Source: Candidatus Schekmanbacteria bacterium (lineage in GTDB: Bacteria; CSSED10-310; JACPHN01). From it: 64,000 nt of DNA. Positions 41,890 through 45,452 of the stretch are shown here, piece after piece. Under the pieces are notes generated by a model. The model ran no database searches. It was not told the DNA's origin and worked only from the letters and a program-made list of their open reading frames with translations. The translations under genes and the position numbers were made by a program. Position 1 is the stretch's first letter. Every line of letters begins with the position of its first letter. The stretch is taken from positions 1 to 64,000 of the forward strand of contig JACPHN010000012.1 of assembly GCA_016188575.1 (NCBI GenBank). Direction: 5' to 3'.

Positions 41890-42543
41890 TTAGTAATTGT
41901 CCGTGAACTCGAGTGGACCGCACTTGCCCCAGATTTCGCATTCTCTCGGGATCCCCAGGCTGAACTGCCCCAGTCCGGGAAGGGCAAAAAACCCTTCCTC
42001 GGGCAGCGGAGCGTAACCGAGAATCATGGTGCGATTGTCGGTCTCGGGGTTCCACGGGACCCAGGGGAACAGCTTTCGGATCAGCCAGGGGAAGAAGTCG
42101 TCGGGGTCCATCAGGTCGAAGGGAATCGACAGCGGTTTCGGGATGAACAGATCCATCTCCCAGTACACCACGACGCCGCCGGACACGAAGGGAATGCTGT
42201 AGTAGATCGCCTTCGCCTCGTATCTCGAGCCGCCGTACGCCTGCGCCATGATGTTCTTGGCGACCTTGGCGTGCTCACCGCTCCAAGAAACGGGCAGGAT
42301 CTCGCTGTTGGTAATCACCGTGCGCGCGGACATGAAAGCCGCGTAGTTCGCCATTTGCCAGGCATTCACGATGATCGCGATCTGCGCGATTACGATGAAC
42401 GCGATGAGGATGACAAATGCCGCGATGATGAACTCGATGATCGACGAGCCGCGCTCTCGCCCGGCGCTGTCTGTCTCGCCACGCTGCCCGCGCACTACAG
42501 TGCGCATTCGCTCCCGTGCTCGCCACATGCCGCTCATCTCCAT
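41890..42543 (-). CDS. TadE-family pseudopilin
   Basis: A 217-residue TadE-type protein. GSSIIEFIIAAFVILIAFIV gives the class III prepilin-like pattern with Glu near +5 and a helix; the soluble domain has AWQMANYAAFMSARTVI and a Trp/Pro-rich segment (FFPWLIRKLFPWVPWNPETD). It probably functions as a minor or pseudopilin of the Tad machine. Start at 42543 (ATGGAGATG) is not supported by a strong ribosome site; ATG at 42528 is possible. Confidence 0.85.
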   Translation of the reverse strand: MEMSGMWRARERMRTVVRGQRGETDSAGRERGSSIIEFIIAAFVILIAFIVIAQIAIIVNAWQMANYAAFMSARTVITNSEILPVSWSGEHAKVAKNIMAQAYGGSRYEAKAIYYSIPFVSGGVVVYWEMDLFIPKPLSIPFDLMDPDDFFPWLIRKLFPWVPWNPETDNRTMILGYAPLPEEGFFALPGLGQFSLGIPRECEIWGKCGPLEFTDNY

Positions 42544-42561
42544 TGGCGCCTCGCGAGGGCC

Positions 42562-42747
42562 TTAGAAGCCGATCGCGTCGGCGAAGTCGTTGATCTTTTC
42601 CTTGATCTTCTCGAAGATCTCGATCAGCGCGTCGGCGAACACCAGTGCAATGGTGACCATGGTGACGCCGATCATGATGCTCAAAACGATCCATTCGACT
42701 GTGGTTTGCCCGCTCTCGTCCACCGCGAGCCTGCTCAGGTGTTGCAT
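42562..42747 (-). CDS. flp: Flp-type pilin
   Basis: A 61-residue small pilin. After DESG comes QTTVEWIVLSIMIGVTMVTI, the class III prepilin hallmark: cleavage after Gly, Glu at +5, and an aromatic residue next to it. The helix is followed by a charged tail (IEIFEKIKEKINDFADAIGF). ATG at 42747 follows GGGGAC. It is the second gene of the cluster and the likely major Flp subunit. A prepilin peptidase (TadV) is not in the window. Confidence 0.88.
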   Translation of the reverse strand: MQHLSRLAVDESGQTTVEWIVLSIMIGVTMVTIALVFADALIEIFEKIKEKINDFADAIGF

Positions 42748-42773
42748 GGATGTCCCCTTTCCCCGTCCCCAGG

Positions 42774-43037
42774 TTAGAGCGATTTGTTGTGATAAGAAGG
42801 TTTCTGCACGACTTTGGTGAAGTTGCCGAAAATGCTCGCGCGGCCGGACTCCGGGCATTCGACCTTGTCCGGGCAGGCGATGTCGGCACCGCCGATCAGC
42901 GTCGCGACGGTCCGCACGATCATGTATCCAATGACGATGCCGACGATGATCAGCAGCACGTAGCTTGCCGTCATCTGGCCGTCATCGTCGCGAAGAAGGT
43001 CCCGCCAGAGTCTTCTTGGGGATGTCATTCCGTTCAC
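42774..43037 (-). CDS. Flp-like protein lacking the prepilin Glu+5
   Basis: An 87-residue protein. DDDG is followed by QMTASYVLLIIVGIVIGYMI, similar to Flp pilins in position and helix but with Ser where Glu+5 should be. A cysteine pair (IACPDKVECPESG) follows, unlike classical Flp. The GTG at 43037 has AAAGGAG 8 nt upstream. It starts the Tad cluster. Possibly a minor subunit or an assembly protein not processed like a pilin. Confidence 0.75.
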   Translation of the reverse strand: MNGMTSPRRLWRDLLRDDDGQMTASYVLLIIVGIVIGYMIVRTVATLIGGADIACPDKVECPESGRASIFGNFTKVVQKPSYHNKSL

Positions 43038-43070
43038 GGCTGATACTCCTTTCCGGCTGGGCTTATGCAA

Positions 43071-43381: not shown

Positions 43382-43764
43382 TACCCCCGGCGCGACTCGA
43401 ACGTGCAACCTGCGGATTAGCATACCCCACCCGGTTTCCCGAGCCACCGCTCGCCGCGGTGTTGGAGTCTGGACTATATCTTCGCCATTCCAGGCGCGGC
43501 GCGTATAGTCTCTGAGGGTCCTTGGTAGTGCCTCTACAGGCCTCGCCCGCGGTTCCCTGCGGATTGCCCATTGTCGCATCCCGAGGTCTTTTTTCACCGT
43601 CACGTACGCTCGCCACGCGGGCCGCGTTGTGGTGCCTCGGGCTTTAGGGGTTCCCCGCATACTGCGCCGTCCACTTCCACGGTTGGGCCTCGCCACAGCG
43701 ATGCTGGTTCCCGCGGAAGGCTCCTTGTTGAAGTCCGCTGCTCTATCCTTTGAGCTACGGGGGC
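43382..43764 (-). tRNA. tRNA-Arg(UCU) interrupted by a group I intron
   Basis: Two exons, 43731-43764 (34 nt) and 43382-43420 (39 nt), join to a 73-nt tRNA. Acceptor GCCCCCG pairs with CGGGGGT (a terminal G-U), D-arm GCTC/GAGC, anticodon stem GCGGA/TCCGC, loop CTTCTAA with anticodon TCT, T-arm GCACG/CGCGC around TTCGAGT (one A-C mismatch), discriminator A. CCA is not encoded. The intron splits the anticodon after U34. The gene starts only 12 bp after the dnaA stop, so it may be read from the dnaA transcript. Confidence 0.92.
43421..43730 (-). ncRNA. Group I intron (IC3-like) in tRNA-Arg
   Basis: A 310-nt intron preceded by exon U34 and ending in G, as group I introns require. Catalytic core elements appear in order: P (TGCGGGGAACCCCTAAAG, about 43642-43659), Q (CAATCCGCAG), R (CTCAGAGACTATA) and S (GATATAGTCC). 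P4 forms from TGCGG/CCGCA and P7 from a perfect GACTATA/TATAGTC. A P1 helix with a U-G pair at the 5' splice site can form with GGAGCC in the intron. No homing endonuclease frame fits. The sequence resembles tRNA introns of the IC3 class known in cyanobacteria and some proteobacteria, and should self-splice. Confidence 0.92.
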
Positions 43765-43776
43765 AGTTCTGTTCTC

Positions 43777-45246
43777 CTATCCTCCGGCCGAGCTTCCCTT
43801 GCCAAGCTCGGTCCGCAAGCGACGAAGCGTCTTCGCGATCACCTCATCCTGCTTGTCCAGATCCTCGATTTTCTTGCACGCGAAGATGACGGTGCTATGA
43901 TCTCTCCCACCGAACTTGCTGCCGATTTCCGTGGTCGAGTCATTGGTAAGCTCGCGCGCCAGATACATGGCAATCTGTCTGGCTTCGGCAACCGGCTTGG
44001 TGCGCCCCCTGGCTCGGAGGTCGCGCGACTTGAGGCTAAAATACTCCGCCACGCGATCGATCACAAGCTCTGTTGTCACCCGCGCCTCCGGTTCGTTGAG
44101 GATGTCGCGCAGCACTTCGCGGACAAAGGGGACGGTGATGCGATTCCCGCGGAAAGCGGCCTGAGCCGCAACGCGGTTGAGACACCCTTCGAGCTCGCGA
44201 ACGCTGGACGTCACGCGCTCGGCAATGAAGAGCGCCGCATCGTCGGGCACCTTCACCTTCAGTGACGCCGCTTTCTTGCGGATGATGGCCACCTTGGTTT
44301 CGAGGTCTGGCGGCTGGATGTCGACAATCAGGCCGCACTCGAACCGCGATCGCAGCCGGTGCTCGAGGGTCTTGATGTCCTTGGGCAGGCGGTCGCTGGT
44401 CAATACGATCTGCTTATGGGCGTCATATAGCGTATTGAAGGTATGAAAAAACTCTTCTTGCGTGCGCTCTTTTCCCGCCAGGCCATGGACGTCGTCGATC
44501 ATGAGCAGGTCGACCTTGCGGTACCGTTCCCGGAAGCCGGTGACCTGCTGGTTGGTGATCGATTCGATCATTTCTTCCATGAAGCGCTGCGACGGCACGT
44601 AGCACAGCCTCACTTCGCCGCCGCCGACAGCGGCGCGACTTGCCACCACGTGGCCGATCGCGTGCAACAGATGCGTCTTGCCCAAACCACTGCCGCCGTA
44701 GATGAAGAGCGGGTTATAGCGCCCCGCGGGATGCTCGGCAACGGACAGCGACGCCGCGTGCGCAAATTGGTTTCCCGCCCCCACGACGAAATTGTCAAAC
44801 GTGTAGCGGGTACTGAGCGGCATGCCCGTATATTCGCAACTGCCCTGTCGGCCCGCGACGGCGCCTTCCTCGACCAGCGCGGCAAAGAGGGTTTCTACTC
44901 CCGGGTTTTCCGGGCCACCCTTGGGATCGGCTGCAGCAAGGCGCCGCGTCGTTGGCCGCCGACCTGGCGCAGCGCTCCGGAACGCCGCCTGAGCGGGAAC
45001 CGGCTCGGGATGCGCGAAGACGACCGACACCTCCTGCCCGTCATCGCAAACCTCGCGAATGGTCTCCTGGATCAGGTGCGCGTAGAACGTTTTTAGATAT
45101 CGGCCGTGATCAGCATTGGGAACGGACAACACAACGTTGTCACCCATGTGACGTTCCAGGCTAACCGGCGCGAACCATCGCTCGTAACATCTTGAGGTCA
45201 CCTTTGCTCGTAGGCCTTCCTGAACGCGCGGCCATAGGTTATCCAT
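43777..45246 (-). CDS. dnaA: Chromosomal replication initiator DnaA
   Basis: A 489-residue DnaA. Domain I (MDNLWPRVQEGLRAKV...), a Pro/Ala-rich domain II, AAA+ domain III with Walker A GGSGLGKTH and Walker B LLMIDDVH, and domain IV with the DNA-binding signature SKFGGRDHSTVIFACKKIE. ATG at 45246 has GAGGTGG upstream; in-frame sequence before it lacks family similarity. It is not followed by dnaN: a tRNA and the Tad cluster are downstream, so the usual dnaA-dnaN order is absent here. It is essential for replication initiation. Confidence 0.96.
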   Translation of the reverse strand: MDNLWPRVQEGLRAKVTSRCYERWFAPVSLERHMGDNVVLSVPNADHGRYLKTFYAHLIQETIREVCDDGQEVSVVFAHPEPVPAQAAFRSAAPGRRPTTRRLAAADPKGGPENPGVETLFAALVEEGAVAGRQGSCEYTGMPLSTRYTFDNFVVGAGNQFAHAASLSVAEHPAGRYNPLFIYGGSGLGKTHLLHAIGHVVASRAAVGGGEVRLCYVPSQRFMEEMIESITNQQVTGFRERYRKVDLLMIDDVHGLAGKERTQEEFFHTFNTLYDAHKQIVLTSDRLPKDIKTLEHRLRSRFECGLIVDIQPPDLETKVAIIRKKAASLKVKVPDDAALFIAERVTSSVRELEGCLNRVAAQAAFRGNRITVPFVREVLRDILNEPEARVTTELVIDRVAEYFSLKSRDLRARGRTKPVAEARQIAMYLARELTNDSTTEIGSKFGGRDHSTVIFACKKIEDLDKQDEVIAKTLRRLRTELGKGSSAGG

Positions 45247-45452
45247 CTGGTAGCCCACCTCAAATGTACACAGCAGCCCGCGGGCACAAACCACCTATCA
45301 GGACCGGGAGACTGGTAGGAGAACTATCACGAGGTCCTTGAGAAGCGCTCTATGGGCGACCCCCAATCGCCATCTTTCTCCTACGGACCTCTTGATCTGT
45401 TGTGTAGCGGACCATAGCTGCTCTCGAAGTATCCCCAACAACCGACAACAGG

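Follow-up and report, generated by a model that had tools for sequence, protein, structure and literature searches.

The insert that splits a tRNA-Arg(UCU) gene after U34 in the window (the whole 64,000-nucleotide stretch of DNA that was analysed) is very likely a group I ribozyme, and an ORF-less member of a recurrent family of mobile-type introns, judging from model matches and covariation. We regard it as a real and probably active group I intron at U34 of the only tRNA-Arg(UCU) gene that we detected. Introns in tRNA-Arg(UCU) are already known at the gene level, and the window holds a further case.

A tRNA-Arg(UCU) gene interrupted in its anticodon

We joined the two exons (GCCCCCGUAGCUCAAAGGAUAGAGCAGCGGACUU and CUAAUCCGCAGGUUGCACGUUCGAGUCGCGCCGGGGGUA; coordinates of all features are given in Table 1) and analysed the product with ARAGORN with no intron allowed. 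The joined sequence was called as a 73-nt tRNA-Arg(tct). This call, together with the covariance model match and the covariation described below, bears out the preliminary description, which had a group I intron splitting this tRNA at the anticodon. The exons were also said to fold to a regular tRNA. The length and the identity of the tRNA held, but its fold is not quite regular, with an A51xC63 mismatch in the T stem. This mismatch was absent from the uninterrupted Arg(UCU) tRNAs of the phylum and might point to a tRNA that is weakened or decaying, or to an error in the sequence. The G1-U72 pair of the spliced tRNA, on the other hand, is common to Arg(UCU) tRNAs of the phylum. The spliced tRNA bears A20, C35 and A73, the expected identity elements of an arginine tRNA.

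ARAGORN reported zero tRNAs in the window under default settings. In its intron mode, the junction was placed off by one base and the gene was miscalled as Ser(gct). We took splicing after U34 together with a terminal G as the junction because this solution fits the rules of group I introns. Genomes that carry such interrupted genes look as if they were without an AGA-reading tRNA because the default tRNA finders miss them.

The tRNA gene lies downstream of dnaA on the same strand, and the distance from the dnaA stop codon is 12 bp, as had been noted earlier. The best matches of the dnaA product are ∼43% identical and are scattered over Nitrospira, Omnitrophota, Acidobacteriota and others. On the minus strand, no noteworthy promoter or terminator was seen. 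Further downstream on the same strand (positions 41890-43070 of the window), small ORFs resemble by eye Flp pilin and TadE/TadG-type pilus proteins.

Table 1. Features of the interrupted tRNA-Arg(UCU) gene and of its intron (positions in the window)
Feature	Position	Strand	Evidence or remark
Interrupted tRNA-Arg(UCU) gene	43382-43764	minus	Two tRNA halves around a 310-nt insert
5' exon, tRNA nt 1-34, last base U34	43731..43764	minus	34 nt; ARAGORN on spliced exons
3' exon, tRNA nt 35-73, begins CUAA, CCA not encoded	43382..43420	minus	39 nt; ARAGORN on spliced exons and sequence
Group I intron, 310 nt, omega G at 43421 (very likely)	43421..43730	minus	R1 match, covariation; Rfam match below gathering score
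dnaA, upstream of the tRNA gene, same strand	43777..45294	minus	Pfam PF00308 (Bac_DnaA) 4.5e-67; coordinates
P1: exon CUU and first intron C (43730-43733), paired to GGAG (43721-43724); the 5' splice site has a U34-G wobble	43721..43733	minus	Same CUUC/GGAG pairing across six bacterial Arg(UCU) introns
P2, 9 bp (43711-43719 with 43674-43682), internal hairpin	43674..43719	minus	7/9 pairs change on both sides, six introns
P3, 6 bp CGGCGC/GCGCCG (43664-43669 with 43497-43502), pseudoknotted with P7	43497..43669	minus	4/6 pairs change on both sides
P4 UGCGG/CCGCA (43655-43659 with 43558-43562) and P5 base (43648-43650 with 43567-43569)	43558..43659	minus	P4/P5 covary
P7: R GACUAUA (43504-43510) with S UAUAGUC (43472-43478), 7 bp, enclosing P3' and P8	43472..43510	minus	Invariant
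P8 (43493-43496 with 43483-43486)	within 43472..43510	minus	One pair changed on both sides
P9.1-type hairpin, GAAA tetraloop (43439-43443 with 43430-43434)	43430..43443	minus	5/5 pairs change on both sides

Recognition of the insert by group I intron models

A search with the Rfam group I model, proposed earlier as a check, did return a match, but only with 21.2 bits (E=0.005 for 751 bases searched, E=0.014 for the whole genome), which is below the gathering score of 50 bits of RF00028 (Intron_gpI); this score is a database criterion and not a biological definition. With the same model, homologous members of the family (L193, L188 and L174) scored 40.7-53.3 bits. We used a covariance model, R1, that was built from three homologous introns of other genomes (G362/L188, G122/L174 and G220/L193) with their loops trimmed and with the window sequence left out. 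R1 matched positions 43417-43673 of the window with 104.5 bits (E=1.1e-25) over all its 182 model positions, where the P5 and P6 loops appeared as insertions. In the genome to which the window belongs, this was the single match. As R1 had been built without the window sequence, a score of 104.5 bits argues that the insert is more than a chance resemblance.

This match also bears on whether two tRNA-like halves lie next to each other by chance, or through a chimeric assembly, as could be suspected from the failure of automatic tRNA finding and from the fragmented assembly. Apart from the match to an independent model, which refutes this explanation, five other bacterial genomes and many viral contigs have homologous introns at the identical tRNA nucleotide. 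We give it practically no weight.

We also compared the insert with tRNA-Leu(UAA) introns, which, like that of the window, follow U34, have an exon that ends in CUU, and terminate with G. Under R1, introns of this type scored 20-43 bits (L195, 20.8; L196, 43.3; L159, 24.2) versus 104.5 bits for the window; R1 was the model used for this comparison with subgroup IC3, the cyanobacterial Leu(UAA) type. Their host tRNA and core sequence also differ from those of the window intron.

Fold of the intron and covariation of its helices

All the elements listed in the preliminary description for the 310-nt insert (the core, P4, a perfect 7-bp P7, an exon U and a terminal G) could be found by reading the sequence. 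The U that ends the 5' exon pairs with a G in P1, and this CUU^C/GGAG arrangement (the caret marks the splice site) was seen in 6/6 bacterial Arg(UCU) copies. The terminal base of the intron is a G (the complement of 43421), and the omega G is present in the homologues as well. Most of the homologues also have a GNRA loop at the P9.1-type hairpin. The P5 extension of the window intron, ∼70 nt in length, contains a CCCGAGG/CCUCGGG helix and a subdomain by direct reading and appears as a 72-nt insertion relative to R1. No such extension was seen in any of the five homologous Arg(UCU) introns from bacteria.

For the covariation analysis, we picked by eye, in each of the six bacterial Arg(UCU) introns, the strands of P1, P2, P3, P4, P5, P7, P8 and P9.1, and concatenated them. 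In this alignment, 99.2% of the pair cells were standard and 20/42 pairs changed on both sides, a result reached by 0/500 shuffles. When the registers were slid, pairing dropped to 34-43%. P1 and P7 showed no variation across the six introns, and their support is sequence conservation rather than covariation. The G349 intron has a mismatch in P8. The P3-P8/P4-P6 core with its P3/P7 pseudoknot is thus present and is backed by covariation.

A complete and covarying group I fold, 310 nt long, also speaks against a protein-spliced tRNA intron of the archaeal, bulge-helix-bulge type. Such an intron would agree with the location of the insert in the anticodon loop; however, the site after U34 is not the canonical 37/38 site of protein-spliced tRNA introns (PMC4033280, PMC8450103). 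We regard this origin as extremely improbable.

On the group I reading, the following pathway can be proposed. In the precursor, the exon CUU and the first base of the intron would pair with GGAG to form P1 with its U-G wobble, and a guanosine bound in P7 would attack after U34. The freed U34 would then attack after the terminal G, which would join CUU to CUAA and restore the UCU anticodon loop. The spliced tRNA would read AGA (and AGG). We infer splicing, GTP dependence, essentiality and spread by homing from these sequence features and comparisons.

Copy number of the gene and decoding of AGA

Two observations had been named at the outset as refuting the intron: the lack of a group I core, or a second, intact tRNA-Arg(UCU) gene in the genome with this copy unspliced and unexpressed. 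The core was recognized by R1 as described above, and no second copy was found in the 94%-complete genome. The spliced tRNA (73 nt), searched as DNA against this genome, matched only its own halves and, over part of its length, Lys and Arg(UCG) genes. A tRNA scan of the genome gave 38 other matches, and among those read by ARAGORN there are Arg(ccg), Arg(tcg), Arg(cct) and an Arg called as gcg, but no Arg(tct). An intact copy could be missing from the assembly because the genome is 93.8% complete and fragmented (275 contigs).

These data bear on the proposal that the intron is inactive and the interrupted gene a dead pseudogene, with AGA read by another tRNA. The T-stem mismatch, the sub-threshold Rfam score and the incompleteness of the assembly would all fit with it. 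However, P1-P9 are intact, including P7, the U-G pair at the splice site and the terminal G. Standard decoding of AGA needs a UCU anticodon, for which no other gene was found, and AGA codons are used in dnaA and in the neighbouring genes. We consider an inactive intron unlikely, and retain a probably active one as the preferred reading.

The same census showed no tRNAs for Asn, Tyr, Thr(GGU/UGU), Gly(UCC), Ile(GAU), Ala(UGC) and Gln(CUG). These absences are probably due to contig gaps, and further interrupted genes are possible. A 126-nt tRNA-like gene of this genome (G000:C245:26100-26225, L145) has intact acceptor and T arms and ∼50 extra nucleotides in its middle. It scored 49.2 bits with RF00005, gave no ARAGORN call, and folded better than its shuffles (z -3.6).

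Uninterrupted tRNA-Arg(UCU) genes were present in 6/7 other examined genomes of the phylum (G001-G006), and they sit in a Pro-Arg-His-Arg-Leu cluster in every case in which the contig was read at that place. The interrupted gene of the window lies outside any such cluster. In the seventh genome (G007), no Arg(UCU) was found. As six of these seven relatives carry the uninterrupted gene, the intron was gained in this lineage. Across the phylum's other genomes, no close DNA relative of the intron turned up; DNA matches there were to the exons alone, and R1 gave no match. One of these genomes (G002) has a different group I intron, which was unreported by R1 and follows U34 of a tRNA-Leu(UAA) (L178; G002:C357:6419-6721). 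It has a long P5 extension like that of the window intron.

Introns at U34 of tRNA-Arg(UCU) in other bacteria

A search with RF00028 over 386 genomes gave many tRNA introns. Among these, the three from which R1 was built interrupt tRNA-Arg(UCU) at the same nucleotide in other phyla. Two more (G244/L208 and G349/L209) bring the number of other bacterial genomes to five, and in all of them the intron follows U34. The core of the window intron is 71-74% identical to those of the bacterial Arg(UCU) introns, and about 59-69% to those of the phage Arg(UCU) introns described below (up to 140 aligned core positions in both comparisons). In a tree of the cores, the window intron groups with the bacterial introns and the deep nodes are weak. 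We draw no direction of intron transfer because the tree is poorly resolved. A plasmid search gave one 37-base match, to the exon only (query L188). In the genome of Bacterium UASB270 (DF820463.1), of the candidate phylum KSB3, a related intron (L236) interrupts a tRNA that we read as Lys(CUU); its insertion point seems to follow U35.

No homing endonuclease was detected by Pfam among the ORFs overlapping the window intron. The Arg(UCU) intron of G244, on the other hand, encodes a 152-aa PD-(D/E)XK protein (PF11645, 3.5e-29), with a weak match (E=0.0008) to 2ost, a solved 'putative endonuclease' known as I-Ssp6803I. The endonuclease of the I-Ssp6803I-type intron in cyanobacterial tRNA-fMet is related to this protein, and the window intron differs from that intron in having no endonuclease ORF. 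By eye, the P6 loops of the G122, G349 and G362 introns look like remnants of a PD-(D/E)XK ORF.

Bacterial group I introns also occur in the anticodon loops of tRNA-Arg(CCU) of Agrobacterium and tRNA-Ile(CAU) of Azoarcus. Unlike the window intron, these lie in tRNAs with other anticodons and at another insertion nucleotide. The placement of the window intron had been thought possibly new. This view could not be maintained. PMC4853749 already records that in giant sulfur bacteria of the Beggiatoaceae, namely Ca. Maribeggiatoa (with reference to MacGregor et al. 2013a) and Ca. Thiomargarita nelsonii, tRNA-Arg(TCT) contains putative group I introns, and the U34 site of this tRNA is likewise occupied in five other bacterial genomes and, on the viral side, in 18 contigs and a named phage. 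The Beggiatoaceae introns share with the window intron the isoacceptor and the group I assignment, in a locus of ∼324 bp (contig Ga0063879_1007, 79335-79658; PMC4853749). Their hosts, unlike that of the window, are Gammaproteobacteria, and the likeness is one of description, at the level of the host tRNA.

Related introns in phage tRNA genes

The named phage (LR756508.1, 484 kb) carries two introns, in tRNA-Lys(UUU) and in tRNA-Arg(UCU), both after U34 (L226, 10714-13774). We scanned IMG/VR with two patterns. The first consisted of core letters only, though letters typical of the tRNA-Arg(UCU) U34 family, and gave 20 stretches, 13 of which are in tRNA-Arg(UCU) after U34. The second included exon letters of Arg(UCU), and so cannot gauge how frequently this tRNA is the host; it added 5 further Arg(UCU) introns to make 18 viral contigs in all. 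All 18 have the loop CUUCUAA, the exon U and the final G, and scored 95.8-123.7 bits with R1 (77-124 bits when the intron of LR756508.1 is included). Terminase, primase-helicase, DNA polymerase and DNA-transfer proteins are encoded on several of the viral contigs, and these phage-type genes support their phage origin.

The phage Arg(UCU) introns thus share the tRNA and the U34 site with the window intron, and differ from it in residing in phage genomes and, for some, in carrying HNH ORFs. They are either short (∼230 nt) or long (593-654 nt), and the long ones encode HNH proteins (PF13392 in both of those tested). The introns of the IMG/VR loci L240 and L245 share a reading frame and may come from one phage lineage. 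According to a 2014 review, the phage introns observed by then were all in protein-coding genes (PMC3984707). Our literature search, which had most subscription papers outside its reach, found none on phage tRNA-Arg(UCU) introns, which speaks only weakly for novelty.

What stands out most in these observations is the connection to phages, whose introns recurrently occupy the U34 site that chromosomal introns use as well. The intron family at this site is a recurrent one, probably spread in some of its members by homing endonucleases, and the endonuclease-free copy of the window may have been passively retained because it is able to splice. More tentatively, and with somewhat less than even confidence, we propose that one mobile group I family targets U34 of tRNA-Arg(UCU) and circulates between phage-encoded and chromosomal genes across several bacterial phyla, exchanging PD-(D/E)XK and HNH endonucleases. 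The window copy would then be an endonuclease-free survivor in a lineage where the interrupted gene is the only AGA-decoding tRNA. Since one intron family occupies the same nucleotide of this tRNA both in many phages and in the chromosomes of different phyla, phage tRNA genes may serve as a reservoir and vehicle for tRNA introns.

Several of these phages (IMG/VR loci L239-L263) have extra introns in apparent Asn, Tyr and Leu(UAA) tRNAs, as read by eye or by ARAGORN.
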